From: Thozetella sp. PMI_491
Taxonomy: Eukaryota; Ascomycota; Sordariomycetes; Chaetosphaeriales; Chaetosphaeriaceae
Assembly (NCBI GenBank): GCA_021432635.1
Contig: MU270019.1
Span: forward strand, 62,001 to 126,000
Direction: 5' to 3'
Length of the DNA: 64,000 bases
The notes below the pieces were generated by a model. It was not told the DNA's origin. It saw nothing but the letters and a program-made list of their open reading frames with translations, and searched no databases. The stretch's first letter is position 1, and each line of letters starts with the position of its first letter. Positions 3,640-31,751 of this stretch are shown here, one piece after another. Position numbers and translations under genes: made by a program.

Positions 3640-4541
3640 GAAAGGCGGCGGACGAGCGAGACCGGGCGTTGCTTGACGGGTTGGCTAAACTATCCGCCCA
3701 GGGGCCCAAACAAGAGGCATCGCAAGTCCTCATAGGGCGCCAGGATACTCACCACGCCTCGGATGACCTCGGGTGACTCGAGTTGGAGGCCATAGCAGCA
3801 CCTCGTGAACTAATGGCATCCCTCGTACTGTAGACTCGGTAGCATTCTCGGTCGCCCGTCTAGGCAAGTGGCCAGTATAAGCACCACCCCTACAGTGGCA
3901 CGAGCCGCATGAAGTGCCGGAAGCAGCAGGATGTGCAGCGCCACGGTTTGTGTAAGCAGCGCACCATCCAGTCAGATGCCGTATGCGGACACCGTGGGGT
4001 TCAAGGCTTTCAGCGCCAGGGCCGTTCGGAATCTCCTTAGCCCCCCGCCGCCCGCCCTACGGGCGATCACTTGCAGCGAAACGGTCCTCAATGGGGTAGT
4101 TTCATTGAATTTCGCTCTTCTGACTTGCTGTTAGCGTTCTGGCTCCCCAAATGCAAGCTGTCACCATGTTCTAGTCTGGTTCTCAGGATGAATACAAATG
4201 CCAAGACCCGCAACGTGCCCGCCGGCTTGAGCTAATCCTGGTAGAGGCACCGACGTCTGCAGTTCATGCCAAGTTTCTATAAACCGCGGCTCGGTCAGCT
4301 CTTCTTGTCCCGAATATTCGCATCTGCAACATTCACCTCAAAGCCGCACCACCCGCACCACCCGCAGGCGCCGCCAGTTCCGTGTTGGACGAGTCAGTCG
4401 AACGAAGCCTGTGGCTTTTGGGTCAACCCACGGGTCCGGCGAGCCTGGCAAGGTTAGACTGCCACTGAGGACTGAGTTGCATCAGCACCACAAAGATGCC
4501 ACTATCTGCAACGACAATAGCAGTCTGCCGCCGCAGGGGGC
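3640..4541. other. Intergenic, no supported gene
   Basis: About 900 bp with only short frames of atypical composition. A CACCCGCAC-type short repeat lies near 4,350. No motif is recognised on either strand. Confidence 0.4.
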
Positions 4542-14338: not shown

Positions 14339-15326
14339 ATGAAATCTATGTACACCACCGCCTTCCTCACAGCCATCGGTGCTGTACTTGCTCATCCTGA
14401 GAAGCTCACAGCGGAGAAGGCGAAGCAGGAGCCTGCCTTAGTCGGGCGATCGTCGGGCAACTGCGCTCGCGCGATCGAGGCTCGGAAGGCTGAGATCTAC
14501 AACAAGCGGGCCTTGCGCCTGAAGCAGCGTCGAGCGGCGCCAGGAGTTTCGAAACGAAACGAGCTCAAGTACACAACGATTCAGAACAACACATGTGTCT
14601 TGGCACCGGAGACAGTTTGGGGCCCCTATGGTATTGACGGCGAGATCGTTCGTCACGATCTGCGCGAGCTTAGCTCGGGGCAAGAAGGCCTCGACCTGTA
14701 CCTTGACATCGGGGTTATTTACGTCACCACCTGCGAGCCTCTACCCGCAGCTGCTGTTACGATACGGAGCTGCAACGCAACTGCTATCTACGCGGGATTC
14801 ACGGGGATTGACCCAGACACGGCCTCCATTTGTGACGGCTGGACGACGCGCTCCAATGGTCTCACTGACGATGAAATTTTCTTACGTGGTATCCAGACTA
14901 CCGATGAGAGCGGTATGGTCGAGTTCCTGACTCACTTTCCGTACAACCCACATACATGTCACCGTGCAGGCAAGCATCACCAATGGAACCAGTTACTCTC
15001 AAAGTGCCGTCCAGCACCTCGGTCAGCTGTTCTTCGACGAGGACTTGATCAATAGTGTTTACAATCTTTCGCCCTATTCCGCTCACTTGGCTACTCTCAA
15101 TCGGACAACTAATGCCGAGGCCAAGCTCTTCTCCACGGTTACTGCCGGAGGCTACAGTGCCCCCATCAGCGTGGAACAAATCGGGGACGGCATTTCAGAG
15201 GGCTTAGTTGGATACGTGAGCTCTCTGCTGCCATCCCCTTGTTCCCAAATTTAACTAACCGGCTTACAGATCACTATTGGTGTGAACTCGACTGCGGATG
15301 ATCGAGCCGATGGATATACCTCATGA
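14339..15326 (+). pseudogene. Secreted intradiol ring-cleavage dioxygenase-like gene, frameshifted in the active site
   Basis: A signal-peptide-like start (MKSMYTTAFLTAIGAVLAHP) is followed by the extracellular fungal intradiol dioxygenase pattern: NNTCVLAPETVWGPYGIDGEIVRHDLRE, then a beta-strand core (LYLDIGVIYVTTCEPLP) and FLRGIQTTDESGMVEFLTHFP. At about 14,945 the frame is lost. One base out of register it resumes as PHIHVTVQASITNG, HLGQLFFDEDLINSV and EGLVGY, then an intron (15,216-~15,269) and ITIGVNSTADDRADGYTS with a stop near 15,326. The segment between HFP and HIHV, which in family members carries the Y-x-G-R stretch next to the two iron-binding histidines, is missing along with the frame. 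The usual IWHCN is IRSCN. Loss of frame and of iron-site residues makes this very likely inactive. Confidence 0.65.
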
Positions 15327-15826: not shown

Positions 15827-17689
15827 TTAAATGGCGTCTCCCTCAATGGCTGACTCCTTCATATACCGCTTGGCATCGTCCGGATGACTGACTCCGATAT
15901 TCACTCTCTCAGTACCATCAATCACCTCCACGTCCTCATAGATTGAATGCTGAATTAGCGTGTCCTGAGACGGGAACATCCAGTTCAATCCGGCATGAAC
16001 GATAAATGTCGAAGTGAAGCCATAGAGGTAAAACATGTCGTAAAGGTAGGAACCACCCCCAATCTCAATGCTGGGGTTGACGGCTGCAGCCAAGCCGGGG
16101 AGCAAGGGGACGACGCCGACGAGCAAAGCTACCGCAGCGCGCCAATTAGTACCCCCGGCGTTGCCGTAGCTATAACGGGCGGTCTTGCGATACAGAGCCG
16201 GCACGTCGATATTTCTCTTCTTGACGACCCAATAATCGCAAGCGAGCAAGGCAGCGATCGGGGCTAGGAAGACTCCGAGAGCCCCCATAAAGTTCAGCAG
16301 CGACTCGGCCGAGCTGATGATCTTCCAGGGGACCATAATCCAGCTGGCCGTAAATGTGACAATAATGGCTCCCCGACGGATATTAATATACTTCGGGAAC
16401 AAACTTGTCAAGTCGTTCGAGCAGGAAATCACGTTGGCAGACAGGTTGGTACCGATCTGCGCAACGCACCAGGAAACTCCGACAAAGAAGGCAGCAGCCC
16501 TGCCGCCAGGCCCATCCCAGTGAGACGCGAGAGCAAGGGGGTCCCAAACGTATTCGCCGTAGACGACCTTTGCACAGGATGTCCCAATAATGCCGAAAAC
16601 GCCGAGGGAGGTCATTAGCAGGGGCACGAAGAAGACCTGCCAGTAGACGCCGCGTTCGTGCTTCATATAGCGCGTGAAGTCGGCCACATTGGTTCCCATG
16701 GTCGCCCAGCCGCCTGTCATTGAGCTCATGGACGAGACTATCAACCATGCCTTTGCGGAACCGGACACGGTCGGTTCCTGGTTCCAGATATCGCCGGCAC
16801 CGCTTGCTAACCGGGTCATCCCGATGACGGTGCCGACGGCGCATGTGATGACAATAACTGCTTTGAAGACGAAAAACCACCGGAGTTTGTGTGGGTGGAT
16901 TAGAAGGAATGGGAACTGGACCGAGAAGAAGACAAAGTGAGAAATCATCTGCTGTGTCGTAATTCCAGCTGACGAGGGCAAATGGTTTGGAATGCTACCA
17001 GTAGGAACCGTCGTTAGCTTGGCTGCCATTAAGGCTAAGTAGCGGTACACAGTAGTGAGACTTACTCCAGAAATGAAGGCCAAATAGCGCGAATTACTTG
17101 GGTCATTGCTGTCGACCCGGAATACGTTTGGATTGCTAGGAGATTCTGTTAGCTTTCCCTTCTTCACCCAATGTCTTCTAGGGCTAAGAACGCACCATGC
17201 CAAAACAAAGCGGTCACCATTCTGATGATGACTGGAAACCGGCTGAAGAGAAAACCAAAGCTTGATCGGGCAACTACTGGGAACGGAACATGCAAAGAAG
17301 CACCGGCAGCACCGTTGAGGCAGAGGGGAATCGTGATCGTGATCATGCCTAGAATTAGGCAGTATAGGGCTTCACGCCTGTCACCCTCCCGTTAGCTGAA
17401 GGCATGGCTGATGAGGATACGACCTCACATACCATGTGAGACCGACGGCTATGATAGCAGATGCGCCAGCCCAGCTTTGAGCGGACAGCCCATCGCTCAT
17501 CCAGTACCCAAGGATGGTCCAACTCGTCCAGGTGCGGTGCTCCAGAGGGGTCACGTCGGTGTCACGATTGCTCCATCCGTTCTCGTCGGCGAACGTGACG
17601 TTTTGTTTCTCAAGGATCCAACCCTCCTTACTCTTCTTGGAGGCGATGTTTCGTCTCGCCGATTCCAGTCTATTTCGAATGCGGTCCAT
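15827..17689 (-). CDS. NCS1-family permease (uracil/uridine/allantoin type)
   Basis: Exons about 17689-17433, 17377-17197, 17135-17066 and 16994-15827 join in phase with short GT-AG introns. The N-terminus (WSNRDTDVTPLEHRTWTSW, then LGYWMSDGLSAQSWAGAS) is typical of fungal NCS1 nucleobase/allantoin transporters. It is followed by helices with GMITITIPLCLNGAAG, VPFPVVARSSFG, IQTYSGSTAMTQVIRAIWPSF, NVADFTRYMK and FGIIGTSCAKVVYGE. The whole protein would have about 12 membrane helices and a cytoplasmic C-terminus (HSIYEDVEVIDG). It is expected in the plasma membrane, importing a purine, pyrimidine or ureide with protons. It is divergently transcribed from the dioxygenase gene across a 511 bp promoter rich in GATA sites, tying it to nitrogen control. 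Exact substrate (uracil, allantoin, biuret-like ureide) cannot be read from sequence. Confidence 0.88.
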
Positions 17690-17870
17690 GGTTTCGGCTT
17701 CAAATCACCAAAAGCAAGTCTCCTTTGGGGGGCCGTGTGAATCGATGCTGTCTAGGTGCTGTTCATCATGCATAATCGCGTCCGTAAAAGGGGGTTTTGT
17801 AATAAGAGGCCCAGAACGGGTTCTTCTAGTGCGCTAAAACATGCAGATTGCCCAGGCACCTATTCCCCAC

Positions 17871-18064
17871 AGATAATCCTTAGCCCAAGCTTAGTCGTTC
17901 CTGAAAGGCCTTCTTATCTACGGTGGACGATAGTTTATCGCGCTGGCCGACGGGCCGGTTTATCACAGTCGGTGGAGCCTGTGGGCCCGTCGACATCCCC
18001 CCTTTTCTAGTCATTTGTCAATCCGGTCGCGTAAGGTCCATGCGAGTCGCCGCTATCGATAGCG
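17871..18064. promoter_or_regulatory. Cluster of seven HGATAR (AreA/NIT2-type) sites in a divergent promoter
   Basis: Within 194 bp of the intergenic region I count: AGATAA at 17871-17876 (+), AGATAA on minus at 17914-17919, CGATAG at 17928-17933 (+), CGATAA on minus at 17935-17940, TGATAA on minus at 17960-17965, and a perfect 14 bp palindrome CGCTATCGATAGCG at 18051-18064 containing overlapping CGATAG sites on both strands. HGATAR is the known binding core of AreA/NIT2 nitrogen GATA factors; paired sites within about 30 bp are typical of functional promoters. The region lies between the permease and the dioxygenase starts, so both are probably nitrogen-derepressed. Confidence 0.65.
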
Positions 18065-18200
18065 ATATCGCAGGCATCTGCTCCCCTTAACTCCCGGGAG
18101 ACATCCAGGAGTGATGCAATCGCTGTAGAAGACGCTTCCACTAAGTAGCGCTCATCCCATTTACATCTTGTTCCATCCCAACTTTCAGCCAAGTTAACAA

Positions 18201-19315
18201 ATGAGCTTCACATCCTTCGCCGGAAACCAGCGGATGATTTCGTCTGATACGGCACGCACCGCCGATTTCAGCGAGATTCCAGTCATCTCCTTGAAAGCAC
18301 CCAAGGCGGAGCTGATCGCACAGCTCACAGACGCCTGCACACGCGTGGGCTTCTTTTATATTAAGGACCATGACGTGCCACAAGAAAAGATCGACCGCCT
18401 ATTCAAGACAGCAGAGTCGTTCTTCGCTCAGGCCGCAGATAAGAAGAACGAGATCAACTACAAAAAATCCAGAATTCTGCGGGGCTACGAGCCCCCAGCT
18501 GAGGTCCGGACAGACGAGACTCGCAAGCCTGACATGAACGAGGCCTTCAACTGGGGCTACGAGAAGAAACTTGATCCTACATGGGACAGCAGCAAGGGCT
18601 CCCAAGGTAAGAGTTCCCGAGACCACTCTACAAAGAGCATCGTCGCTGACGAGACAATGGCTCTTCCAAAGAATGGGCCGAGAACCCCATGTCCGGGCCC
18701 AATGTGTGGCCAGACATGCCAGGTTTTCAAGAAACTGTTGCGGATTATTACGCTGAGCTCCTTCGCTTAGCTAGACAAATGATTAAATACTTCGCCGAGG
18801 TGCTCCACTTGCCGCCAGACTTTTTCGACAGCCTAGTTTCCACTCCAGGAGCTATGGGCCGCCTGATTCACTACCCACCACAAAAGGCTTCTGATCCGGA
18901 GGCGCTAGGAATTGGCGCCCATACTGATATTGAATGCTTCACCATTCTATGCCAAGGGACGGTACCCGCTCTCCAGATTCTCAACAGTGAGGACGAATGG
19001 ATCCAGGCACCGCCGGTGCCGGGTACCTTCGTGGTCAATATTGGGGATTTGCTGGCCCGCTGGACGAATGACCGATTCGTGTCGACCGTCCATCGTGTAT
19101 GGAATATCACGGGTCAGGAAAGATACTCGATTCCTTTCTTCTTTGGTACCAACTATGACGCCACCATTTCGACGCTTGATTCGTGTCTGGACGCGGGCGG
19201 CAAGACAAAGTATGAGCCAGTTCTCGCTGGTGACTATGTATGGAAGAGGCTTTCGGCCAGTCGCGTGGACCAGAAGGAGCTGAGGACCCAACCGGCACAA
19301 GGAACTGTCGCCTAA
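18201..19315 (+). CDS. Fe(II)/2-oxoglutarate dioxygenase, isopenicillin-N-synthase-like
   Basis: Start ATG at 18201; one intron 18607-18671 joins SSKGSQ to EWAENPM in phase, giving about 345 residues. The N-terminal DIOX_N-type domain (IPVISL, ACTRVGFFYIKDHDVP) precedes the jelly-roll domain. The iron ligands are visible as H219-T-D221 (GIGAHTDIECFT) and H276 (STVHRVWN), with the 2-oxoglutarate arginine in R286-Y-S. The layout LLARWTNDRF...STVHRV...RYSIPFF is shared with fungal thymine 7-hydroxylase, among other members of this large clade. With a nucleobase-type permease across the shared promoter, oxidation of a pyrimidine, purine or ureide is a reasonable guess, not a proof. Soluble, cytosolic. 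Confidence 0.85.
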
Positions 19316-20215
19316 GCGCCTCGTAGTTCAATCCCAAACTTTAGGATAGTAAAATAGGAATTACGGCGTTGGACACATAGTTTAACGATGTGCTGGCAAG
19401 TGCAACTACTTCCCATTCTACAACACTCTAATATTTCGTTGATACCTAGAAATATAAACCTACTCTTCTATTCCCCCAATGGCCTATTAGCTCTTTGGCA
19501 TGGTATTGGACCAGCACGGCGTTCAAGACGAAACATCAACCGCCTAGGTCCAAAAACAACTAAGAGTGCCCACAAAGATCTTGGGCAACCTCCACACGCT
19601 AGCAGGGATGTACAGTGGGATAGCAGGGGTCAACACGGCTTGCAGCTAACTACCGCATCTAGCGCTGACAATGTTTGTCGTCGCCGCCGGCAAGACCAGG
19701 GGCCCGGCGCCGGCGCCGGCCGTCGGCGCGCTGACGACATTTTATCCTAGCCCGCCCAGGCCATCTCGTCGGCCACATCGCCATGAGTAAGTATGAGCAT
19801 GGGGTTTGTCTGCATTTTCTTGGCGTGCGAGATTTTCTCTTCCTCAGTGAATCGTCATCTCTCAGCTTCGTCCACGAGCCATCCGCAGCTCAGACATCGG
19901 CCGCACGGCTAGAGGCCTGCTCACGGCGCTGGTAGATTGTTTCGCCTTGTGCTCGCTTTGGGGACTACACGCAGTTGCATACCAAGTCCTCAGTACCTTT
20001 TCTTCTTCCACGAATCTGTGTTCAGTTGTACAAATAATCCCTACACGGAACAATATCGCCAAATACCCTGTATCTCGCCCACTGAAATTTAGGTAATTAT
20101 GAACTAAGACCGCTGGGTCCGTGGTGTGTTTCAATCAGCTAATGACTATAACACCAGCAGCAATCATTTTGAGGTTCAATAGAGTCACAAGGGAAACCTG
20201 AACTCATCGTAGGCA
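19316..20215. other. Intergenic, possible relics but no supported gene
   Basis: About 900 bp between the dioxygenase and allophanate hydrolase genes. A GC-rich stretch with GGCGCCGGCGCC repeats lies near 19,700. Short frames here, such as one reading KILGNLHTLAGMYSGIAGV near 19,580, could be a relic of an earlier membrane protein, but no complete gene is present. Confidence 0.35.
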
Positions 20216-22114
20216 ATGCCCGAAGAAATGCCTCGCACCGAAGGGCATGGCAAGGATCGAGATCAAACTCAGGATGCGGGACCTTTCCCTCTGACGATTG
20301 CCGAGTGGAGAGCAGCTCAGCTCCTAGCAGACGGCCAATCTCGCCTTCTTTCTCTCGTGAAACATGCCGCCTTAGTCAGCCCAATAGCCTGGATTTCCAT
20401 GGCGACTCCGGAGCACATTATGGAACAGTGGGCATTTCTCGAAGCGAAACGCGGAAATGCAGCCAATATGCCGCTCTGGGGTGTACCGTTCGCGGTAAAA
20501 GACAACATAGACGCTGCAGGCTTTCGCACAACCGCAGGCTGCCCAGCTTTTGCCGGGTCCGTTGTGACAGAGGACTCCCCCGTGGTGGCTAAGCTGAAAG
20601 ACGCGGGTGCCGTGGTTATCGGCAAGACCAACCTCGATCAGTTTGCCACAGGTCTCGTTGGTACACGCTCACCTTACGGAGCCGTTCCGAACTCGTTCGA
20701 CCAGTCGCGCGTGAGTGGCGGATCCAGCTCAGGTAGCGCAGTTGTTGTTAGCGGAGGGTTTGTTCCATTCTCGTTGGGAACGGATACAGCAGGCTCTGGC
20801 CGCGTTCCAGCTGGACTAAACAACATCTTTGGACTGAAGCCGACAAGAGGAGCGTTAAGCATTAGAGGGGTAATCCCGGCGTGCAAGACGCTGGATTGCG
20901 TCTCGATTTTTGCCCTCACGATTGACGATGCTTCAGAAGTATTACGTGTTATCGAAGGCTTTGACGCGCAGGACCCCTACTCAAGGAAACGACCTGCAGA
21001 TTCTGCAAATATGGGATACGGATACGGCATCGCTGCAGCTATCTGCCGCAATCCGCCCTGGTTTGGTGAAGTAGAACAACAGCAGGCCTACCTAGTTGCC
21101 CTTGAGAAGGCCAGAGCACTCGACTGGAAACTGGTGGAAACTGACTTTTCCCTCCTATTCGATCTAGCGAAATTGCTATATGAAGGACCATGGGTAGCAG
21201 AGCGCTATGAGGCAATCCGCAGCTTCCTTGAGGGATCTTCAGCCGAAGAGATGGATCCAGTGGTCCATGGAATCATTCTTAAAGGGCGCGAGTTCTCAGC
21301 CGCAGATGCATTCGCGAGTGAATATCGCCGTCGAGAGCTCTCACGCCAAATCGAAGAAGCCTTTTCGCAATATGATGCAATTTTAGTACCTACAACACCA
21401 ACATTCCCGACGATAGAAGATGTTGGTCGCGAGCCAATAGCGCGGAATTCCACTCTGGGAACGTACACCAACTTTGTTAACTTCATGGAATGGGCAGCCC
21501 TGTCTGTGCCTGCAGGGTTCAGGTCGGATGATCTGCCTTTCGGCATCACATTTATAGCGGGACAGTGGAAGGAGCCACTGCTACTTCATCTCGGCCGTCA
21601 GTGGGTTGCCGGAGAGTCGAGACCGCTTGGGGCAACCGGGCGGAAACATGTCGAGCCAGCGCCTGCGCCCCTGAACCTCGCCCCGGCGCTACAAACTACT
21701 GTTTCCCTAGTAGTCGTCGGTGCCCATCTTTCGGGGTTTCCTTTGAACAAAGACCTCGTTTCCCGCGGCGCAACATTCGAGCTGGCTACAACCACGTCAC
21801 CGCACTACCAGCTTTTCTCCCTTGAGCCGAAGAATGGAATAAAAAAGCCAGGGCTCAAGCGCGTCGCAGAACATGAGCAAGGGAGAGCGATCGACGTCGA
21901 GGTGTGGGCATTGCCTGTAGACCAGCTTTGGAGTTTCATGTCAACCATCCCACATCCGCTAGGGCTTGGGTCGGTGGAGTTGAAAGACCAAGCCTGGAGG
22001 CTAGGATTCATATGTGAGCCCGTGGGGCTGCTCAATGCGACCGAAATCACCCACTTTGGCGGTTGGAGAGCATACATGACCCAGCCGCCCAAGGTGCCAC
22101 AAGTCATGCAATGA
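20216..22114 (+). CDS. Allophanate hydrolase (amidase domain plus AtzF-type C-terminal domain)
   Basis: Intronless, 632 residues. Residues about 25-460 form an amidase-signature domain: VPFAVKDNID (catalytic Lys95), GGSSSGSA (Ser170) and TAGSGRVPAG (nucleophile Ser194). The spacings Lys-75-Ser-24-Ser match those of characterised allophanate hydrolases to within a residue. Residues about 500-625 carry the allophanate-hydrolase C-terminal domain (VVVGAHLSGFPLNKDL, TSPHYQLFSLE, VEVWALP, PLGLGSVELKD, EITHFGGWRAY). This domain separates true allophanate hydrolases from general amidases. The reaction is allophanate plus water to two ammonia and two carbon dioxide, the last step of biuret or ATP-dependent urea breakdown. 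Ascomycetes usually carry this activity fused to urea carboxylase (urea amidolyase); here it stands alone beside a biuret-hydrolase-like fusion. The start at 20216 is the first ATG of the frame. Confidence 0.9.
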   Translation: MPEEMPRTEGHGKDRDQTQDAGPFPLTIAEWRAAQLLADGQSRLLSLVKHAALVSPIAWISMATPEHIMEQWAFLEAKRGNAANMPLWGVPFAVKDNIDAAGFRTTAGCPAFAGSVVTEDSPVVAKLKDAGAVVIGKTNLDQFATGLVGTRSPYGAVPNSFDQSRVSGGSSSGSAVVVSGGFVPFSLGTDTAGSGRVPAGLNNIFGLKPTRGALSIRGVIPACKTLDCVSIFALTIDDASEVLRVIEGFDAQDPYSRKRPADSANMGYGYGIAAAICRNPPWFGEVEQQQAYLVALEKARALDWKLVETDFSLLFDLAKLLYEGPWVAERYEAIRSFLEGSSAEEMDPVVHGIILKGREFSAADAFASEYRRRELSRQIEEAFSQYDAILVPTTPTFPTIEDVGREPIARNSTLGTYTNFVNFMEWAALSVPAGFRSDDLPFGITFIAGQWKEPLLLHLGRQWVAGESRPLGATGRKHVEPAPAPLNLAPALQTTVSLVVVGAHLSGFPLNKDLVSRGATFELATTTSPHYQLFSLEPKNGIKKPGLKRVAEHEQGRAIDVEVWALPVDQLWSFMSTIPHPLGLGSVELKDQAWRLGFICEPVGLLNATEITHFGGWRAYMTQPPKVPQVMQ

Positions 22115-22653
22115 AGCGGCGGCTCCTTGCTCAAGGCCGACGCCACGGTGCCTGTACTTGACTGCGAAGAGACTGCCATATGTAACGGGGCCAAAGAACA
22201 ATGGAGCGAGCAGAAAAATCATGGCCTGACCTATGCGGCTTGCTCTTTGCCGTGATCTCCCGCTGTTGACTGTGCGGCATTTCGACTACCATCCCAACTA
22301 GGTACATACTAGATCCATTTCCCAATTCCCAGGGCCGAATATCGCACATTACCCTAGAGTAGGCAAATAGCGTATTCCATTTTGGCCAACATATCTCCCT
22401 ACGTATTAATCTACCTTAGGCAGAGAGATAGGTTAATGACCTTGGCGGCGCCCCATGTCTCTGATATTGGAGCACACCAAGTGGGCCCCCCCGGATCGCG
22501 GTTGGTAACAAAGCAGTCTCCACTCGGCACCTCACCTGACGCGGGATTTCCCCTCTGCCCGAACCTCAACACTCCACATGCCGTAACAAGCTGCTATCTT
22601 ACATACGCATCATCTCCAATCGCCATCTGCTGGGAAGTAGTGGGACCGGCAGC
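22115..22653. other. Intergenic, promoter of the Zn2Cys6 regulator
   Basis: No gene. An AGATAG site at 22426-22431 and a CTATCT near 22,592 are single GATA-type sites; weak evidence for nitrogen control of the regulator. Confidence 0.35.
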
Positions 22654-24459
22654 ATGTCCTCGTCTCGGCCTAGGCCGTGCGACATGTGCCGCCAGCGCAA
22701 GACGCGATGCGTCAAGCAGAGTGACCAGAGTCAGTGCATTCTCTGCGCCTTTCACGATAGGCAGTGCACCTATTTGCGAGGCCCTCGCAATCGCCAGCAG
22801 CTGCGCCGTACTGTTCCGTCGCCAGCATCGCCAAGGGATGTACGCCAACCAGAGGATCCTCGCACGCCTTCTGTCGACGAGGGACTTGGGGCCAGTCCCG
22901 AAACTAAAAAGGACGAGCCGGAAGGCGACTCACACTACCCGAGTAACGAGACGTCGCTGTCTTTGCTGAACGGCACTCTGGGGTTGGATTTGGATACACA
23001 TCCAGAGTACGTCGGCCCCACGAGCCATCGGGAACCAGCTCTGCTAGACCTTCAGCAGCACCAGGTCAGCCTCGGCTATGACTACGGCCCGCTAGAGCCC
23101 TCCACGTGGCCAGCTCGCCGACTCAACGACCGAAACATGTTCCTCATCTGCCCGGACGATGGGGTGGCTTCAGAAGAGCGACGTATCGCGGACTGTGACG
23201 CAATCGAGAACAGCATATCGCCCATGGGCAGCTCCTTAGTGCAGCTTTACTTCAAAGTCGTGCATCCTAGCTTTCCCATCTTGCACAAAGGCGTCTTCCT
23301 TGCCAAACATGAAATATCTCATCGTTTGTTCTCCCCTCCTTTGTTAGCAGCTGTGTACCTGATCGCCCTGGACTACCACATTTACGACGCCAGCATAGAC
23401 CAAGAACTGGTCAACCCTGGCGACGAGAGTGGGCAAGCAGTTCTAGAAGCCCTGGCCGAGCGGACCATGGCAGATGATCTCAAACGGCCAAAGTTGAGCA
23501 CTCTAGAGGCCGGCTTGCTTCTCCTCCAGCGGTGTCGCATCCGTGCGGAAGCCTCCAATTGGATGTTCTCAGCGCAGATGGTCGCCCTGGCCCAAGGCCT
23601 AGGACTACACGTGAATTGCGAGGACTGGGACATCCCCGAGTGGGAGAAGGGCCTTCGGAAGCGGCTTGGGTGGGCATTATACCTGCAAGATAGATGGGGG
23701 GCCTTAATTCACGGCCGGCCGCCCCTTTTCAACGATGATGATTGGGACCTGCAGCCTTGCGTACAGGCAGACTTCCCAGAGCCTCCCATTGATGAGCATG
23801 CAGGACCGGATGCCGGGCTCTACGTTTATACTGGGGGGGAACTCTTCATCCAGCACACCCAGCTTGCCCGGATCCTGACGGAGGTGATGAAGAGGTTCTA
23901 CACGAGCGTTGCTACAAAGCCGGGGGGGAGCTTGGATCGAATGGGCGCGGTCGCGGCGACGGAGATGGCAAAGCCATTGATGCTACAGCTGCGCAAGTGG
24001 CATGCAGATCTGCCCGATCATCTACGCCTAGAGACCACCCAGCCCAGGAAACTTTCGGCGAACGGGTCTTTGCATCTCGCATATGTCGCTGTCGAGGTGG
24101 CATTGCATCGGGCGCTCGTCAGATTACTCACTCCTTCTACGCCGCCGGAATTGGTCCAGGCCGTTCGGCTAGCCGCCAGGAACCGCGTACAGAGCGCGGT
24201 CAGTTTGCTAGAAGGCCTCCAGCCAGAACACACCGGCGCTTTTTGGTGGGGCGCATCCGCATATCAGGTCGCTACCGTCGGCAGTCTAGCATGCCTGCTG
24301 TGGGCGACGTCTGAAGGCCAGGACGAGATGCAATGGTGCGCGAAAAAGGTGCAAGATTTACGCTGGATCCTCAGAGTGCGGTCCAAGGCGTCCCTGTTTA
24401 TGAAGGAGGCCCTGAAGTTGATAGAACAAGACCTAAGCAGCTTCATTCCAGCCACATAG
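22654..24459 (+). CDS. Zn2Cys6 transcription factor, Dal81/TamA-like, within the ureide island
   Basis: Intronless, 601 residues. The N-terminal binuclear zinc cluster has Cys at 9, 12, 19, 28, 31 and 38 (CDMCRQRKTRC ... CILCAFHDRQC), a canonical C-x2-C-x6-C-x8-C-x2-C-x6-C. Residues about 190-400 are the fungal-specific transcription factor middle domain (LVQLYFKVVHPSFPILHKGVF, then GWALYLQDRWGALIHGRPPLFNDDDWD). The run LQDRWGALIHGRP...DDDWD resembles the Dal81/TamA group, co-activators of ureide, urea and GABA use in fungi; this assignment is from memory of the motif. It sits between the allophanate hydrolase and the fusion enzyme, all on the plus strand, and is the obvious candidate pathway-specific activator of the cluster. 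Confidence 0.82.
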   Translation: MSSSRPRPCDMCRQRKTRCVKQSDQSQCILCAFHDRQCTYLRGPRNRQQLRRTVPSPASPRDVRQPEDPRTPSVDEGLGASPETKKDEPEGDSHYPSNETSLSLLNGTLGLDLDTHPEYVGPTSHREPALLDLQQHQVSLGYDYGPLEPSTWPARRLNDRNMFLICPDDGVASEERRIADCDAIENSISPMGSSLVQLYFKVVHPSFPILHKGVFLAKHEISHRLFSPPLLAAVYLIALDYHIYDASIDQELVNPGDESGQAVLEALAERTMADDLKRPKLSTLEAGLLLLQRCRIRAEASNWMFSAQMVALAQGLGLHVNCEDWDIPEWEKGLRKRLGWALYLQDRWGALIHGRPPLFNDDDWDLQPCVQADFPEPPIDEHAGPDAGLYVYTGGELFIQHTQLARILTEVMKRFYTSVATKPGGSLDRMGAVAATEMAKPLMLQLRKWHADLPDHLRLETTQPRKLSANGSLHLAYVAVEVALHRALVRLLTPSTPPELVQAVRLAARNRVQSAVSLLEGLQPEHTGAFWWGASAYQVATVGSLACLLWATSEGQDEMQWCAKKVQDLRWILRVRSKASLFMKEALKLIEQDLSSFIPAT

Positions 24460-24986
24460 AGAGACCAAAATGCAGCTAAAAGGCATACTCGAAAGAGAGA
24501 GACGGCGCTCTGAGTGCTGCAACATGGCTACAGCGCAGGATGGTGACAAATCTGTGTTGGCTGTGCCATTGGAAGAAACTCTCAGCGCATTATGGAGCTT
24601 CAGAGGCGTGTTCATGACGGGAGCCAATAACAAGCTCCCTGCGACTTCGGAGATTTGTTATCAGCATGGCCCCGTTTGTCGCCGCCGGCGGGCGCGTGAC
24701 AGGCGGCGGGCGGCGAGCGGCGGGCGGCGGGCAGTGGGGCTGCGGGGCGAGTTACAGGACCGAGGCGCCCGGGCGGCGGCCAGATAAGGGATTGCCGGAG
24801 CCGTAACGGATATGTGACGGACGCGCCGCGGGTTACGACTTCCCACGCGCCCGCCCGATACGAAGCGATCACTCTCAGACCTCACAACAAAATCTCTAGA
24901 AGCCTTCGATCAGATAGGTTGAGGAGTCAGCCAACAGCTCGGCGGATCGTGAGTGAGTCGCGTCGCAACTCTCCTGATCTGGCACA
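24460..24986. promoter_or_regulatory. Promoter region of the fusion enzyme with GATA sites and a GC-rich tract
   Basis: Two HGATAR sites precede the fusion gene: AGATAAG at 24782-24788 and AGATAG at 24912-24917. Between about 24,690 and 24,780 is a G/C-rich tract of imperfect CGGCGGG repeats. The sites fit control by the nitrogen GATA factor, as in the divergent promoter at the other end of the island. No coding sequence is seen. Confidence 0.5.
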
Positions 24987-27182
24987 ATGAGCTCCGACAA
25001 GCGTGGCTATCTTAGCTTCGCAGCTGCGAAACCGTATGCCTTCGAGTTTCATCCTTCACGCACGGGACTGGTGCTGATCGATATCCAACGCGATTTTGTG
25101 GATCAGGACGGCTTCGGGGCGATCCAATGTGGCGACGCAGCCGTCTTCTCAACTGTGCGCTCGGTCGTCGGGCGCGCGCAGAAGGCACTGCAGGCTGCGC
25201 GAAGGTTAGGCTTACATGTTATCCATACGCGCGAGGGACACCTGTCGGACTTGTCAGACCTCAGCGCGGCGAAGAAAGACCGACAAGTCAACGCGCCAAA
25301 CGGCCATCATGTAATGGGAATCGGAGAGCAGGGACCGATGGGCAGGCTCCTCGTCCGCGGTGAGAAGGGGCACGATATTGTGGATGAGCTGCGCCCGCTG
25401 GCCGGAGAGGTTGTGATCGACAAACCAGGAAAGGGTTCATTCTGGAACACGGACTTGCATCGCAAGTTAATGGCGAGGGGGATAACGCACCTACTCGTGT
25501 GCGGCGTGACGACCGAGTGCTGCGTCACCACTACGGCGAGGGAGGCGAACGATCGTGGGTTCCAGTGCTGCATACTCACTGACTGCACTGGGGGATTCGA
25601 CCAAACTTTTGTGCAAACTTCACTCGACATGATTTGCGCGTACGACGGGCTTTTTGGCTTCACGGCAACGAGCGTGGAGTTGCTCCAGTGCATGGAAGAG
25701 CAGACAACTGTTCTCACCCCGCCGGCAACACCCCCAGAATGGGACGGACAAAGCTTGGGACTCGCTACGTTATCTTCGCTATACCGACAAGGAGTCATCA
25801 CCCCCGAGCTTGTCGTTGAAATGACGTATCGCCGAATCGAAGAATACAGTCGCCAAGATCCAGCGGTCTGGATTCACTTGAGATCGAGAGAAGAGCTTCT
25901 TGAAGATGCCCGGTTACTGCAAACCAGGTACGCCGGGAACGGGTTGCACGAATTACCTACTCTCTATGGCGTTCCTTTTGCCGTAAAGGACAACTTCGAC
26001 GTCGCTGGTACTCCAACAACCTCTGGCTTCGCCCCGAGCGCGTATACTCCAGCTTCGACCGCTGCCGTTGTCCGTCAGCTCCAGTCTGCTGGAGCGATCC
26101 TGGTCGGCAAGACCAACATGGACCAGTTCGCTACCGGCCTTAGTGGCTGTAGATCCCCTTACGGTACACCCTCGAGCGTCTTTGGTGATGGCCGTTACAT
26201 CTCTGGCGGGTCGTCTTCCGGATCAGGGGTCGCTGTGGCCGCTGGCCTGGTGACCTTCTCACTTGGAACCGACACAGCAGGTAGTGGTCGTGTCCCTGCA
26301 GCTTTGAATGGGATCGTAGGTTATAAGCCCACGAAAGGAACCCTCTCTGCCCTTGGAATGCTTCCTGCCTGTCGAAGCTTGGACACTGCTTCTATATTTG
26401 CGACATCCGTTGGGGACGCGCGAAGAATATGGTGCGTCCTCGATGAGTGCGACAACGAAGATGTCTTTTCGAAAGCTCCATCTTCTCTTCCCCTTGAGTT
26501 GGCCGATTATAGGCCGCTACACGAGGCGGGTTTCACTTTTGCGATTCCGCCGGCCTCAGCACTGAGCTGCTGCTCTGAGTCGTACCTGTCAGCGTTCGAG
26601 AACGCTTGCCAACGACTCGAAGGACTTGCAGGTCGGCGGGTACAACTGTCGGAAGAAGAATACCAAATGTCGTTTGAAAAAGCCACAGGGTTGTTGTACA
26701 GCGGCAACTTGGTGACAGAGAGGGTTGCGTGCATCGGCCCCTCATTCATATCGGAGAACCTCGCGAAGTTCCACCCGACAACGCAAAGCCTGTTCAGAGC
26801 CGTTTTGGCTCGGGACGCGAAGCCGTGGGACGTGTATGCGGATCAGATTGCGCAAGCGGAGGCAACAAGACGAGCCTCAAACCTCTTCTCCAAACATGTT
26901 GGGAAGATCGATGTTCTCGTCACGCCAACCGTTCCACGCCACCCCACTATCAGCGAGATGGAGGCTGATCCTATCGCGCTGAACGCACTGATGGGAGAGT
27001 TTACTCATTTTGGAAACGTATTAGATCTATGCGCTATTAGTGTGAGTGCCGGTACGGTGGATGGCGGCATGCCTTTTGGTCTGAGCTTGAACTGTGCTCG
27101 GGGCATGGATGGTAAAATGTTTGATCTAGCCGAAGCATTTGAGGGCAATCAAGCAGCTGAAGGGAAGATTGGAAATCTATGA
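24987..27182 (+). CDS. Fusion of biuret-hydrolase-like isochorismatase domain and allophanate-hydrolase-type amidase
   Basis: Intronless, 731 residues, two enzymes in one chain. Residues about 20-235 are a cysteine hydrolase of the isochorismatase fold with triad D32 (VLIDIQRDF), K146 (VIDKPGKGSF) and C179 (GVTTECCVTT). The flanking text HVIHTREGH, GKGSF and AREANDRGF is shared with bacterial biuret hydrolase BiuH, and the K-to-C spacing (33) is the same. A linker (TPPATPPEWDGQ) leads to an amidase-signature domain, residues about 258-731, with K334 (VPFAVKDNFD), S409 (GGSSSGSG) and S433 (TAGSGRVPA), spaced exactly as in the neighbouring allophanate hydrolase. The AtzF C-terminal domain is absent here. 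Predicted: biuret to allophanate plus ammonia in the first half, allophanate breakdown in the second. Triuret, ureidoacrylate or another ureide remains possible for the first half. Confidence 0.85.
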   Translation: MSSDKRGYLSFAAAKPYAFEFHPSRTGLVLIDIQRDFVDQDGFGAIQCGDAAVFSTVRSVVGRAQKALQAARRLGLHVIHTREGHLSDLSDLSAAKKDRQVNAPNGHHVMGIGEQGPMGRLLVRGEKGHDIVDELRPLAGEVVIDKPGKGSFWNTDLHRKLMARGITHLLVCGVTTECCVTTTAREANDRGFQCCILTDCTGGFDQTFVQTSLDMICAYDGLFGFTATSVELLQCMEEQTTVLTPPATPPEWDGQSLGLATLSSLYRQGVITPELVVEMTYRRIEEYSRQDPAVWIHLRSREELLEDARLLQTRYAGNGLHELPTLYGVPFAVKDNFDVAGTPTTSGFAPSAYTPASTAAVVRQLQSAGAILVGKTNMDQFATGLSGCRSPYGTPSSVFGDGRYISGGSSSGSGVAVAAGLVTFSLGTDTAGSGRVPAALNGIVGYKPTKGTLSALGMLPACRSLDTASIFATSVGDARRIWCVLDECDNEDVFSKAPSSLPLELADYRPLHEAGFTFAIPPASALSCCSESYLSAFENACQRLEGLAGRRVQLSEEEYQMSFEKATGLLYSGNLVTERVACIGPSFISENLAKFHPTTQSLFRAVLARDAKPWDVYADQIAQAEATRRASNLFSKHVGKIDVLVTPTVPRHPTISEMEADPIALNALMGEFTHFGNVLDLCAISVSAGTVDGGMPFGLSLNCARGMDGKMFDLAEAFEGNQAAEGKIGNL

Positions 27183-27488: not shown

Positions 27489-29384
27489 CTAGAATGATCC
27501 TCCAGCAGTGCACATCGCTGGCTCTATGTCAGCTGATGTATGACCACCCTCCATCAGGCTTTGAACGTGGCATGTTGACGCCGTTGAAGGCAGCTGCCAC
27601 ACCTGAAAGGTCCCGTTCTGAGGAGCCTCCAACCCGGCGTACCCGGTGCCAAACATGACGTAGTCGTGCACTGCAGACATGACCCCATGAAAGTAGGCAT
27701 CGAGGTGCCACTCTCTCAATATGCTTCCCGTCTTCTTGTCTAGGGCGAGGAAGCTCCCCGGTCCCACGCCGGCGCCGAGCGGGCCGCCCTCGGTAAAGTT
27801 ACCACTGATCCCTGTCAGAAGCACATCGTTCACAACGGCCGGCACGACGATGCTTGTTGTGTTTCGCGGCGATGCGATCTGCCAAGCAATCTTTCCGTCC
27901 TTCAAGCTCGCAGCTCCGAATGCACTGTTCGAGATGACCGTCTTGCCATCGCCAGCCGGCAATGTGTAGTTGACGCGATTCCAGTTCACCACAGTGTAGT
28001 AAACTTGTCGATCGTCAGCCGCAACACCCCAAATGAGCCCTCCTTCCAGGCCCGTTGGTCCCGTAGACGTCATCCAGAGCACCTTCCCAGTTTGGGCGCT
28101 CAGTCCCCATAGCGCCGAGCTCTTCTGGCCCACAACAAGCATATCCAGTCCGTCCGGAGTGTGTGCAGATCCCAAGATGAAGGTGGGCGCCATTCCCAAG
28201 TCCACATCTGGGCCAGCGGTAAAGTTGCACTGGGGCCCACCGCCGCTCCCAGGCGCGATGAGATCCGGTACACAAGCGGTGTTCCACGGATCCAACGGCC
28301 CGAGCCTCTTCACCCAGTTGATCCGCCCAGTCGGGATGTCCAGTGCCACGACTGAGTCGAGCATGACGCCCTTGGGTAGGCATTGTGCGCCAACTTGTCC
28401 GTCTCCTACGACGGTTAAGTTGACTGTTGCATCGTGGCATTCTTCGAAGGGCTCGGTAAGTGAGTACATATTGCCGCTCCCGATAAATACCTGGTTCCGT
28501 ATCGGGTCGATTGATGGCTGGCCACCCCACACGGCGACCCCGGAAAGCTCAGAGCCAGTCGGGATCATAGCAGTTTTCCAAATGCGCCTAAGCCTGCCGT
28601 ATCGGAGCACAAAAGCATTCATAGACCCCACAAAGGTACAGCATTCGTAGTCAGGCACGATGCTCGCAGTGGCCTCTTCCAGACTGCTTACGCCAATGAG
28701 GATGAGGCCTTTGTAAACTGTAGGTGACTGTGTCAGAACCGCTGAAGGATGCTCGTCCACTTGCACAGCGTCGACTAGTCGCCCAGTGCGCTTGTCGAGT
28801 GCCATAAGCAGTGCTTGTGCTTGGCTTCCAATGAATAGAACGTCCCCATCCACTGCTGGCGTAGTACGCGACAGTACCGGAAGGAACGTCTGGTTCGGGT
28901 TCAGCGGACGAAATTCCAGGATCAGTCGAGTGACGTTGGTCTGCCAGATCGTCCGGCATCTGCGATAGTCCAGTGCCACGACAAGCCCACTCCAGGTTGG
29001 GTAATATGCAATCCCATTCTCGATGAACGGAGCAGCACTCACTCCGGGGCTGTACTTTTTGGTGCATACTTGAGCTAGCAATTTGGCGTTTGACTTGTTC
29101 ACGACAGCGTCCGACCCCGCCCAATGGTTATTGTATATCCCAGCTCCCCATCCAAGCCAGCTACCTCTTCGGCTCGGCGAAGGCTGAGAAGAAGGTATTT
29201 GCGCTGCATCCCCTGCATCATCAAAGAGCCGACTAGTTAGGTGAGTATCGTCGATGCTGTCCAGTTGCATAAGAACCTGCTGGTCGGAGTCCATATTTTC
29301 GAACCCGGTCGAGCTGAAACATGCCTTTATAGCGAAAGCAAGTAGGAATAAAGAGGTGAGACCCCCACGCCACGGGAGCGCCAT
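27489..29384 (-). CDS. Secreted PQQ-type beta-propeller protein (quinoprotein dehydrogenase-like)
   Basis: Intronless, 631 residues. It has a signal-peptide-like start (MALPWRGGLTSLFLLAFAIKACFSS), then GWLG-like WLGWGAGIYNNHWAG, the opening of fungal and bacterial PQQ repeat proteins of the polyvinyl-alcohol-dehydrogenase type. Repeated propeller blades follow (NGIAYYPTWSGLVVALDYRRCRTIW, TPAVDGDVLFIGSQ, MLDSVVALDIPTGRINWVKR, ALWGLSAQTGKVLWMTS, FLALDKKTGSILREW), each ending in a tryptophan-docking-like A-x-D-x-x-T-G-x-x-x-W pattern. No cytochrome c CxxCH motif is present, so it would use an external electron acceptor if it is a dehydrogenase. Expected outside the cell. Substrate unknown. Many fungi have several such genes without known function. 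Confidence 0.82.
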   Translation of the reverse strand: MALPWRGGLTSLFLLAFAIKACFSSTGFENMDSDQQVLMQLDSIDDTHLTSRLFDDAGDAAQIPSSQPSPSRRGSWLGWGAGIYNNHWAGSDAVVNKSNAKLLAQVCTKKYSPGVSAAPFIENGIAYYPTWSGLVVALDYRRCRTIWQTNVTRLILEFRPLNPNQTFLPVLSRTTPAVDGDVLFIGSQAQALLMALDKRTGRLVDAVQVDEHPSAVLTQSPTVYKGLILIGVSSLEEATASIVPDYECCTFVGSMNAFVLRYGRLRRIWKTAMIPTGSELSGVAVWGGQPSIDPIRNQVFIGSGNMYSLTEPFEECHDATVNLTVVGDGQVGAQCLPKGVMLDSVVALDIPTGRINWVKRLGPLDPWNTACVPDLIAPGSGGGPQCNFTAGPDVDLGMAPTFILGSAHTPDGLDMLVVGQKSSALWGLSAQTGKVLWMTSTGPTGLEGGLIWGVAADDRQVYYTVVNWNRVNYTLPAGDGKTVISNSAFGAASLKDGKIAWQIASPRNTTSIVVPAVVNDVLLTGISGNFTEGGPLGAGVGPGSFLALDKKTGSILREWHLDAYFHGVMSAVHDYVMFGTGYAGLEAPQNGTFQVWQLPSTASTCHVQSLMEGGHTSADIEPAMCTAGGSF

Positions 29385-30830
29385 GACGAGCTGTATTCAA
29401 AATGGACTTGAGAATAGCGACCAAACATCAAAACTAATGAGAAGGATCTCTACCATCATTATAGGCTTAAATACATGTACTCTTATATTGGCAAGCATCC
29501 TCCACCCTAGCACACTGACGTGAGTGTGGCTGAACTGGGCTGACCACCACCATATCCACTTTGGGATGTATATCCTGTGATGACCCGCTCCTTGCACCTT
29601 GGAGTCAGCAACGGTTACGGCGGGAGGGAGGGCATGCTAACCCTACAAGAAAGAAGGCGTACGTCATACCAATGGTTGGATGAATCTATTCGCTCTAGGT
29701 TCCACGCTTTGCCTCCGTGGCTGAGTAATGGTCATGTTACGATATTCCATTCTCAGGCTAGTTCATGGGTGTGGCTTTTGTTCTTTCGGAGCTTGGGAGT
29801 AGATTTTTTTTTTAAAAAAAAAAAATTTGAAGTCGTGCTCTCGCTGAGTCGGGATATTTACCACGTGAATATTTAGTTAGTAGAAATCATCAACAGCAAT
29901 CCTGTGGATTAGAAACTCTCCTCCCCGGAACCAGGGTTGTTTGTTGATCAGTCCCTTGAAGCTCTCAGCCGGTTCTCTAAGCATGGCCCAACAAGGTAAT
30001 CTCAGCGATCTGGGAGGTGAGACGGCCGTGCCACCCTAGCTCGACCACTCTGATGCCCACAATGCCTCTGCTGACACTCTGTTACCCAGTGGACGAAGTT
30101 AACTAAGGATCCTGATTTGTGTCAGGTGAACGGTCCAAACCGGGGCATATATTCTAAGGGGTGCACTATATATCCTGCTACGCCAACATCGTTTGCGCCG
30201 CGAGCAATTCGCTATAAGCAACATCTTACTCGAATAATATTACCCATCTAGTAACCTATGTAGCTGGTTAACAGTAACGCTGAAGTAGCTTAGCTCGGTA
30301 GCTAGCTTCGAGTTGAGCTAAGACGAGAAGAGGGGAGTTGTAACAGTGGAGTGATTAAAGGTATCGATCCTGGATAGGTCGTATCTTGCCCTATGCTCTA
30401 TATTAGTTTCTGGTGTATCTATTCCGTACTTCGTAGTAATTGAGGTCGAAAGGGGTTAATAATTCTGCCAGGCTACTCAACCCCCCACCCCCTGCCCTTT
30501 CTTCCCTGCAACACCTCTGGAGTGGGTCGATGAGACGCTATAGTAGTCCGGACCGGGGCCGGGGACAAGCATTAGGCCGCAGGAACATTTCCCGCCGCCG
30601 TTAGACGCGGATTAACGCTGTCCTGGTCAAGCATAGCGTTAGAGGGGAGCCTCCGCTTGTGGGACAAGACAAAAATCCCTTCGGCGAATCCAGGTTATAA
30701 TCCTCTTGTTGTCGCTCGGGTTGATTGCCACGTGTTCCCTTGCTTTTTGGCACCTATATCCTTCGGTTGTTCCCCCCCCCCCCCCCAATCGATTCACCTA
30801 TCCGCAGCGGCGCACCCGCATCCCAAGGTC
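29385..30830. other. Long gene-free region with T/A homopolymer hairpin
   Basis: About 1.4 kb without a supported gene. At about 29,808-29,826 a run of ten T is followed directly by about twelve A, a perfect hairpin. A run of about fourteen C sits at 30,773-30,786 just upstream of the lactonase start. The rest is AT-rich with scattered stops; it should include the promoters of both flanking divergent genes. Confidence 0.45.
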
Positions 30831-31751
30831 ATGGGGGACGGCGAAAACGGGCCGGTCGGCCTTACGTTCATGTCCACCGGCTCGGTCCAAATTCGGACGG
30901 CAATGCGGAGTCAGCCTATCCAAAACAGCATTATTGCCATGCGGCGCCTCCGTGTTTTCACGGATAGGCAGTGGTCCGAGCCTTTACCAATTGGAGTGTT
31001 CCTTATTTCCCACCCGAATGGGCCCATTCTGTTCGACACCGGCGAGTCCCCAGCATGCAACAATCCCGGGTACCGCCCAGTCTGGAGCCCCACGCGCTTG
31101 CTCACGCGGACCAAGATCGACCCCGAGCATGGCATCGTCGCTCAGCTGCGGGCCAACGGCGTCGACCCCGGCGATCTGCAGGCCATCGTACTGAGTCACC
31201 TGCACGGCGATCATGCTGGGGGTATGCCCGAGCTGGCGGCAATTGCGCCCAACGTGCCCATCTATCTAGCCCGCGAGCAGTGGGACGAGTTTGGAAACAG
31301 CCCGATGTATGCCACTTTTAAAGGCTGCTCCCCGAATCACTGGCATGCGGGTTTCGCGCCCCAAATCCTTGAGTTTACGTCTGGACCGCTGGGGCCGTGG
31401 AAACAGTCCTCCAACATCACTCTAGACGGGCGTGTCGTGGCGGTGCCCACTCCTGGTCACGTACGTGGCCATATCTCTCTAGTGGTGTACGGAAACCATG
31501 GCGGCACTAAGGATGGAGAGCCAACCACCTATATCTTGCCGGGCGACGCCACATACGGCGTGGACTTGCTCGACATGGAAGCACCGGACGGGATCAATGA
31601 TGATCCCAAGACAGCCTTTCAGAGCCTGCTCTTGATAAAGGAATTTGCCCGACAATACGATGTCGTTGTCCTCCCAAGCCATGACCCTCACACTCCCGCG
31701 CTGCTTCGGGAAAGAGTGATCTACAAGCCCGGTGCAAACCCAGCCAAATAA
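30831..31751 (+). CDS. Metallo-beta-lactamase-fold lactonase-like hydrolase
   Basis: I choose the ATG at 30831 (MGDGENGPVGLTF), because the open frame upstream passes through a poly-C run and lacks coding character. That gives 306 residues. The zinc site is complete: SHLHGDHAGG (HxHxDH), PTPGHVRGHIS, LPGDATYG and the distal LPSHDPHTP. The substrate-facing N-terminus (FLISHPNGPILFDTGE) is like that of N-acyl homoserine lactonases (AttM/AiiA type) of the same superfamily. It would hydrolyse a lactone or ester, probably in the cytosol as there is no signal peptide. Acyl-homoserine lactones are one possible substrate; mycotoxin-type lactones are another. Confidence 0.82.
   Translation: MGDGENGPVGLTFMSTGSVQIRTAMRSQPIQNSIIAMRRLRVFTDRQWSEPLPIGVFLISHPNGPILFDTGESPACNNPGYRPVWSPTRLLTRTKIDPEHGIVAQLRANGVDPGDLQAIVLSHLHGDHAGGMPELAAIAPNVPIYLAREQWDEFGNSPMYATFKGCSPNHWHAGFAPQILEFTSGPLGPWKQSSNITLDGRVVAVPTPGHVRGHISLVVYGNHGGTKDGEPTTYILPGDATYGVDLLDMEAPDGINDDPKTAFQSLLLIKEFARQYDVVVLPSHDPHTPALLRERVIYKPGANPAK

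Follow-up and report, generated by a model that had tools for sequence, protein, structure and literature searches.

A candidate oxidative route for a substituted ureide: a five-gene island with an aromatic-type hydrolase-amidase fusion in Thozetella sp. PMI_491

The window analyzed here is a stretch of 64,000 nucleotides (C5:62001-126000) from the 72.3-Mb assembly of Thozetella sp. PMI_491, which comprises 157 contigs. At positions 15827-27182 it carries five genes side by side: an NCS1 permease, an Fe/2-oxoglutarate (Fe/2OG) dioxygenase, a stand-alone allophanate hydrolase (AH), a DAL81-like transcription factor (TF) and a fusion of an isochorismatase-like hydrolase (IHL) with an amidase. 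All five are real and intact with open frames, the permease lying on the minus strand and the other four genes on the plus strand. A preliminary description of this DNA had assigned the five identities and proposed a catabolic cluster for biuret or a related ureide; the identities are borne out by Pfam and NCBIfam scans. The features of the locus are:

15827-17689, minus strand: NCS1 permease gene (PF02133), 558 aa when spliced from four exons at 17689-17433, 17377-17196, 17135-17066 and 16994-15827; gene start at 17689
17690-18200, no strand: common promoter of the permease and the dioxygenase, with seven HGATAR (GATA-factor) sites
18201-19315, plus strand: Fe/2OG dioxygenase, 349 aa, DIOX_N and 2OG-FeII_Oxy domains; single intron of 65 bp at 18607-18671
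19674-19691, plus strand: TTTGTCG/CCGCCGGC motif upstream of AH, located by pattern search of the genome
20216-22114, plus strand: stand-alone AH, 632 aa, one open frame, Amidase and AH_C domains
22654-24459, plus strand: DAL81-like TF, 601 aa, one open frame, Fungal_trans domain
24675-24689, plus strand: repeat of the AH motif upstream of the fusion, overlapping the palindrome CCGCCGGCGG at 24682-24691
24987-27182, plus strand: IHL-amidase fusion, 731 aa, one open frame, Isochorismatase and Amidase domains, with Tyr219

The IHL half of the fusion has TrtA as its best solved relative (212 bits), followed by biuret hydrolases (188 and 175 bits). Its Asp-Lys-Cys triad is present as Asp32, Lys146 and Cys179 (D24, K129 and C162 in TrtA), and Glu83, Lys149 and Glu177 are the equivalents of E72, K132 and E160. 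However, in an ungapped alignment to TrtA and RhdBiuH, the position of TrtA Gln202 and BiuH Gln215 is occupied by Tyr219. Changing this glutamine costs most of the activity in both bacterial enzymes: in BiuH, the Gln215Ala and Gln215Glu variants show a KM increased by a factor of more than 25 and a reduced kcat (PMC5806882), and in TrtA, Gln202Glu loses more than 95% of the triuret activity (PMC7948467). In the TrtA dimer, Gln202 extends into the active site of the neighboring subunit. The IHL half also scores under the cut-off of 370 for biuret amidohydrolase NF050097, with 224.4 bits for the whole protein and 227.8 bits for the domain piece. In the amidase half, the Lys-Ser-Ser triad and the Tyr571/Arg579 pair are retained in 121 of 121 aligned fungal rows, the pair aligning with Tyr299/Arg307 of G. 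bethesdensis AH, which we take to be the residues holding the carboxylate; this half reaches 420.7 bits on TIGR02713 against a cut-off of 511, and has no AH_C domain. The preliminary description had stated that the catalytic residues for biuret breakdown are in place, which holds for the triads and fails at the substrate-binding glutamine.

The fungal relatives of the fusion were taken as the best 120 of 8000 scored relatives, the window's own protein included; a second fusion of the same genome, on contig C11 and identical to one listed row, brings the alignment to 121 rows. All 120 listed rows contain both domains, and the IHL-amidase fusion itself is not rare. Across the alignment, the IHL triad, the E72/K132/E160 equivalents, the Lys-Ser-Ser triad and the Tyr571/Arg579 pair are kept in 119-121 of 121 rows. 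Of the 120 listed rows, 97 have an aromatic residue at site 219 (Y 79, F 18), the others having Q (21), H (1) or N (1). Among 86 prokaryotic IHL open reading frames (ORFs), from 67 of 68 loci, the same site holds Q in 85 and S in one, and the place of TrtA Glu160 holds E in 56, D in 22 and H in 8. The eight bacterial relatives with histidine where TrtA has Glu160 and BiuH has Asp173 (L069-L075, L078) perhaps represent another substrate class. With TrtA and RhdBiuH as the root of a FastTree phylogeny of the IHL domain, all 97 aromatic rows fall into a single clade (support 0.994). A second tree was built from 93 chosen rows (40 of the 97 aromatic, all 23 other listed fungal and 30 of the 86 prokaryotic) after removing columns 218-219; the other fungal rows fall on one side of a branch with a Shimodaira-Hasegawa-like approximate likelihood ratio test (SH-aLRT) value of 94, and the prokaryotic rows likewise with 100. 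Six alignment columns separate the aromatic from the other type at the 80% level, 218 and 219 among them.

The Thozetella genome holds one fusion of each type, the Tyr type in the window and a Gln type on C11 (731 aa, spliced). A separate IHL gene on C80 (L021:4866-5690) has Asp where TrtA has Glu160 and, read by eye from the next exon, Glu at the Gln site. The C11 fusion is divergent from an NCS1 permease of its own (L018:263-2523, minus strand, and about 3927-5934, plus strand); this permease is one of the nearest paralogues that the window permease has (40 to 67% over five pieces). A bacterial IHL gene with an NCS1 permease directly after it (L062:5785-7675) displays the same pairing as the fungus.

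Gene neighborhoods in other fungi were judged from locus tags and from contigs of the same size in protein-search listings, each comprising the best 120 rows per search, with close proteins clustered and full-length urea amidolyase left out by size. Dioxygenase and fusion carry consecutive locus tags in Pestalotiopsis fici (PFICI_02745/02746), Oleoguttula mirabilis (LTR36_007316/007317) and Zasmidium cellare (PRZ48_002933/002932), and they lie on a contig of the same size in Xylariomycetidae sp. FL2044, Xylariales sp. PMI_506, Teratosphaeria nubilosa and a Septoria; the genomes with this linkage presumably span Sordariomycetes and Dothideomycetes. Seven of the 23 listed dioxygenase rows with at least 60% identity over their query half match the contig size of a listed fusion, and in Phlyctema vagabunda the two genes are on different contigs. 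Further pairings involve the other members of the island. In the nearest relative, one contig of 6,674 bp carries both the fusion and the TF (79% and 78%); elsewhere, a contig of 18,518 bp carries AH with the TF; and in Venustampulla echinocandica a fusion of the Gln type lies two tags from AH (BP5553_10690/10692). The 6,674-bp and 18,518-bp matches are weaker than the locus-tag cases because a 4,575-bp contig match, between a fungal fusion and a bacterial-type AH, is likely a false positive of size matching. In Verticillium longisporum (BN1723_002617/002618), a relative of the TF adjoins an AH match that is a lipoyl-bearing fragment, probably to be read as urea amidolyase. The TF with AH appears to be an older association linked to urea amidolyase, which would make the island a union of two modules with an added permease. 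All five genes occur together in no other genome among the matches listed, an absence that means little given how the lists were made up. The co-location of orthologues expected from the preliminary description is thus found for the dioxygenase-fusion pair, which is not scattered, and not for the full island.

Within the genome itself, merging of fragments left 37 NCS1, 44 dioxygenase and 71 amidase loci, and expected numbers of pairs within 5 kb assume uniform placement. A dioxygenase of the family found in the island lies within this distance of six of the 37 NCS1 loci (0.27 expected), five remaining without the window pair, and there are five NCS1-amidase pairs against 0.46 expected. Dioxygenase-amidase pairs show no clear excess within 5 kb (2 versus 0.51 expected), and some of the pairs in the genome may be copies of one another. 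The association of the five genes is more than chance. NCS1 permeases also occur no more than 2 kb from dioxygenases of this family at five further places (two on C2, one each on C20, C21 and C36), possibly other nucleobase-type catabolic pairs.

The promoters point to nitrogen control for part of the island. The promoter between the permease and the dioxygenase holds seven HGATAR sites against 1.47 expected, a count reached in 0 of 200 shuffles, and the intergenic stretch between the C11 fusion and its permease holds ten (2.92 expected; 0 of 200 shuffles). Before the window fusion there are three (0.96 expected; 13 of 200 shuffles), and three control stretches outside gave 3 versus 2.65, 1 versus 1.33 and 0 versus 4.46. 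The earlier proposal of a catabolic cluster with a dedicated permease and a DAL81-like regulator is supported as likely, and one promoter carries GATA signals of the nitrogen type. The pattern TTTGTCGN{0,3}CCGCCGGC matches four sites genome-wide: 19674, upstream of AH; 24675, upstream of the fusion; and one each on C1 and C35. Its reversed control has two. A common block as long as that of the AH and fusion promoters was found in 1 of 200 shuffles, about 0.03 after correction for the six pairs compared.

The window permease matches PF02133 with 199.1 bits from the last-exon frame alone (458 aa). The dioxygenase matches 74 sequences of the PDB at E 0.001, the best with 177 bits and thymine dioxygenase with 127.5 bits; the HxD...H metal site (H219, D221, H276), the RxS motif for 2OG (R286, S288) and Phe292 are present. 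The HxD motif is followed in HTDIE by an isoleucine, which stands at the place of Tyr217 of thymine 7-hydroxylase (T7H), as judged by motif spacing, in 31 of 31 aligned rows; the roles of the T7H residues, Tyr217 included, are described in PMC4787775. The window AH scores 738.4 bits on TIGR02713 (cut-off 511) and 152.6 bits on PF21986 (AH_C), a domain that a genome-wide profile search finds once, in this protein. By sequence it groups with other filamentous-fungal rows. The TF matches PF04082 (Fungal_trans) and has the six-cysteine Zn2Cys6 motif at residues 9-38, PF00172 itself being unlisted at E 0.001; some relatives, with 53-57% over the matched half, are named Dal81/TamA by annotation only. 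Two further TF matches of equal score and identity near contig starts (C8:3183-4610 and C38:4831-6258) are perhaps one duplicated contig end.

Taken together, we give nearly even chances to the locus being a catabolic cluster, probably nitrogen-controlled, for a substituted ureide or an oxidized N-heterocycle rather than for biuret itself. This reading follows from the loss of the glutamine for the distal amide while the residues around the scissile amide are kept, from the tolerance of Phe at site 219, by which the ring rather than the hydroxyl seems to matter, and from the oxidase and nucleobase-type permease that travel with the fusion. In the proposed mechanism, the NCS1 permease would import the compound and the dioxygenase would oxidize it, giving a ureide with the structure H2N-CO-NH-CO-R. 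From this ureide the IHL half would remove the terminal amide, with the aromatic residue at 219 stacked on R in place of the hydrogen bond that the bacterial enzymes make to a second amide. The fused AH-type amidase would cut before the unstable intermediate decarboxylates, its Tyr/Arg pair holding the new N-carboxylate, and any allophanate formed would be converted to ammonia and CO2 by AH. A fusion of the two hydrolases is understandable, given that N-carboxylated intermediates of this kind are unstable in water (PMC6219798). The DAL81-like factor would activate the genes, with allophanate perhaps as the signal; such a factor fits here because in yeast allophanate is the inducer of Dal81/Dal82-controlled genes, Dal81 acting with Dal82 (PMC4589623). 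More broadly, we tentatively propose, at somewhat less than an even chance, a widespread, undescribed oxidative route of ascomycetes for a substituted ureide, built from an aromatic-type fusion, distinguished from the biuret/triuret-type fusion by a substrate-pocket switch, a dedicated dioxygenase and an NCS1 permease, and joined here in one island by an AH of urea-amidolyase type and a DAL81-like regulator.

Several observations weigh against the favored reading. HGATAR sites are not enriched before the TF (2 versus 1.52 expected; 92 of 200 shuffles reach this count), and the AH promoter has none against 2.37 expected. The motif common to the AH and fusion promoters was noticed by eye before it was counted, which makes that search post hoc. 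All seven fusions linked to a dioxygenase are aromatic, yet the chance of this is about 1 in 5 given 97 of 120 aromatic rows, and among the matches listed no other species has AH and the TF next to the dioxygenase-fusion pair. The tree that leaves out columns 218-219 requires two changes to account for the aromatic rows; set against the one clade of the first tree, a single switch is possible and its direction is not firm. If R were some group other than an amide, allophanate would not have to arise and AH would have nothing to do, and the substituted ureide is itself a putative substrate. Finally, a cyanuric acid amidohydrolase (CAH) of this genome would supply biuret.

That last point leads to the alternative of a plain biuret, triuret or cyanuric acid pathway, which we regard as unlikely and in which Tyr219 would simply be tolerated in a fused fungal enzyme. 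The permease would import the substrate, the IHL half would produce allophanate (or 1-carboxybiuret from triuret), and the amidase half and AH would finish the breakdown. It stays open above all because CAH is present. A fungal cyanuric acid hydrolase family was reportedly published already (Dodge 2013). The gene here lies at C5:1606168-1607073 on the minus strand, 1.48 Mb from the window, and encodes 344 aa with one 62-bp intron; its protein scores 238 bits to solved CAH versus 158 to barbiturase and 356 bits on the NCBIfam CAH equivalog, just under the cut-off of 360, and where barbiturases have Gln it retains Arg (PMC4051656). The kinship of the IHL half with TrtA and BiuH, the Glu at the E160 place as in TrtA, and the 16 of 68 prokaryotic IHL loci that hold an ORF of at least 380 bits to the window AH also agree with a biuret pathway, and a succession of two amidases would match triuret breakdown, with 1-carboxybiuret and then allophanate as their substrates (PMC6219798, PMC7948467). 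Against it stand the replaced substrate-binding Gln, the score below the cut-off for biuret hydrolase, a dioxygenase left without a role, and AtzH, for which a profile search of the genome gave no match. The Gln-retaining C11 fusion would be the better biuret candidate, with the window AH downstream; Venustampulla, where a fusion lies close to AH, tells in favor of a biuret function by this linkage and against it by the Gln type of that fusion. The biuret reading of the preliminary description is supported only in part. AH and the TF seem to be of urea-amidolyase origin.

This origin is the starting point of the other alternative, distinctly improbable in our estimate, that two unrelated modules came together by chance: the TF and AH from a urea-amidolyase locus, and a separate permease-dioxygenase-fusion set. 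The TF and AH would then serve urea, or allophanate from a urea carboxylase encoded elsewhere; C3 and C20 carry urea carboxylase domains, C14 carries fragments of them and C4 a urease, while the only AH_C is that of the window. The 18,518-bp contig with AH and the TF, the V. longisporum urea-amidolyase fragment, the grouping of AH with filamentous-fungal rows and its promoter free of GATA sites fit such a history, but the TF and AH sit between the dioxygenase and the fusion rather than to one side of them. A promoter motif with four genome matches common to AH and the fusion, the neighboring fusion and AH in Venustampulla, and the fusion and TF on one 6,674-bp contig of the nearest relative likewise speak against chance assembly. 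Oxidative catabolism of a putative substituted ureide by this cluster is the reading we favor.

Among the papers listed by searches of the open-access literature, with subscription journals mostly outside its range, we found neither an IHL-amidase fusion nor a biuret or ureide gene cluster described in a filamentous fungus. The authors of the TrtA study mention triuret genes in some fungi (PMC7948467). Among 64 fungi, urea amidolyase is reported only in Sordariomycetes and Saccharomycetes, and Dothideomycetes are reported to have amidase genes separate from urea carboxylase (PMC3073912). In our view, some of these amidase genes may be IHL-amidase fusions. If the favored reading is true, a eukaryotic nitrogen-salvage pathway would be added to those for allantoin, urea, uracil and nicotinate, and the aromatic type, with 97 of 120 listed fungal rows, would pose a concrete substrate question. 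For many named rows of this type the annotation reads just "allophanate hydrolase" or "amidase", names which, given the aromatic majority, may hide a different substrate. One genome with both fusion types, CAH and a single full AH makes the functional split testable in one organism, and a new ureide hydrolase might serve against urea- or triazine-type soil residues.

To the right of the cluster, a pyrroloquinoline quinone (PQQ)-type beta-propeller protein (27489-29384, minus strand) and a metallo-beta-lactamase-fold protein (30657-31751, plus strand) seem to mark its edge. To the left of the permease, positions 14339-15055 encode a protein with a signal-like N terminus and no Pfam match, whose sequence we take to be reminiscent of extracellular intradiol dioxygenases.

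Compared with known systems, the fusion belongs to the same IHL family as BiuH of Rhizobium leguminosarum 3841 and TrtA of Herbaspirillum, with the same triad and Glu72/Lys132 equivalents; in those enzymes a Gln binds the distal amide, whereas the window fusion has Tyr at this place, an attached amidase and a score under the BiuH equivalog cut-off. The Lys-Ser-Ser triad and Tyr/Arg pair of its amidase are common to AtzF and the amidase half of Dur1,2, which, unlike the fusion amidase, carry AH_C. The window AH resembles these two in passing TIGR02713 and carrying AH_C, but Dur1,2 urea amidolyase also contains urea carboxylase, without which the window AH stands alone. The dioxygenase has its closest known systems in thymine 7-hydroxylase of N. 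crassa and HxnY of the A. nidulans nicotinate cluster; T7H has Tyr217 (Phe or Trp in some T7Hs) after HxD, where the window type has Ile. Cyanuric acid pathways, namely atzDGEHF of Pseudomonas sp. ADP and the CAH and BiuH of R. leguminosarum, remove one amide after another and end in AH, as proposed here. They share CAH with this genome, yet it lies 1.48 Mb off and AtzH was not found, while the permease, dioxygenase and TF are additions of the island. Like the DAL/DUR regulon of yeast, the island combines a DAL81-like factor with enzymes for the formation or breakdown of compounds resembling allophanate; its genes, however, are physically clustered, and its enzymes give no indication that the substrate is allantoin or urea.

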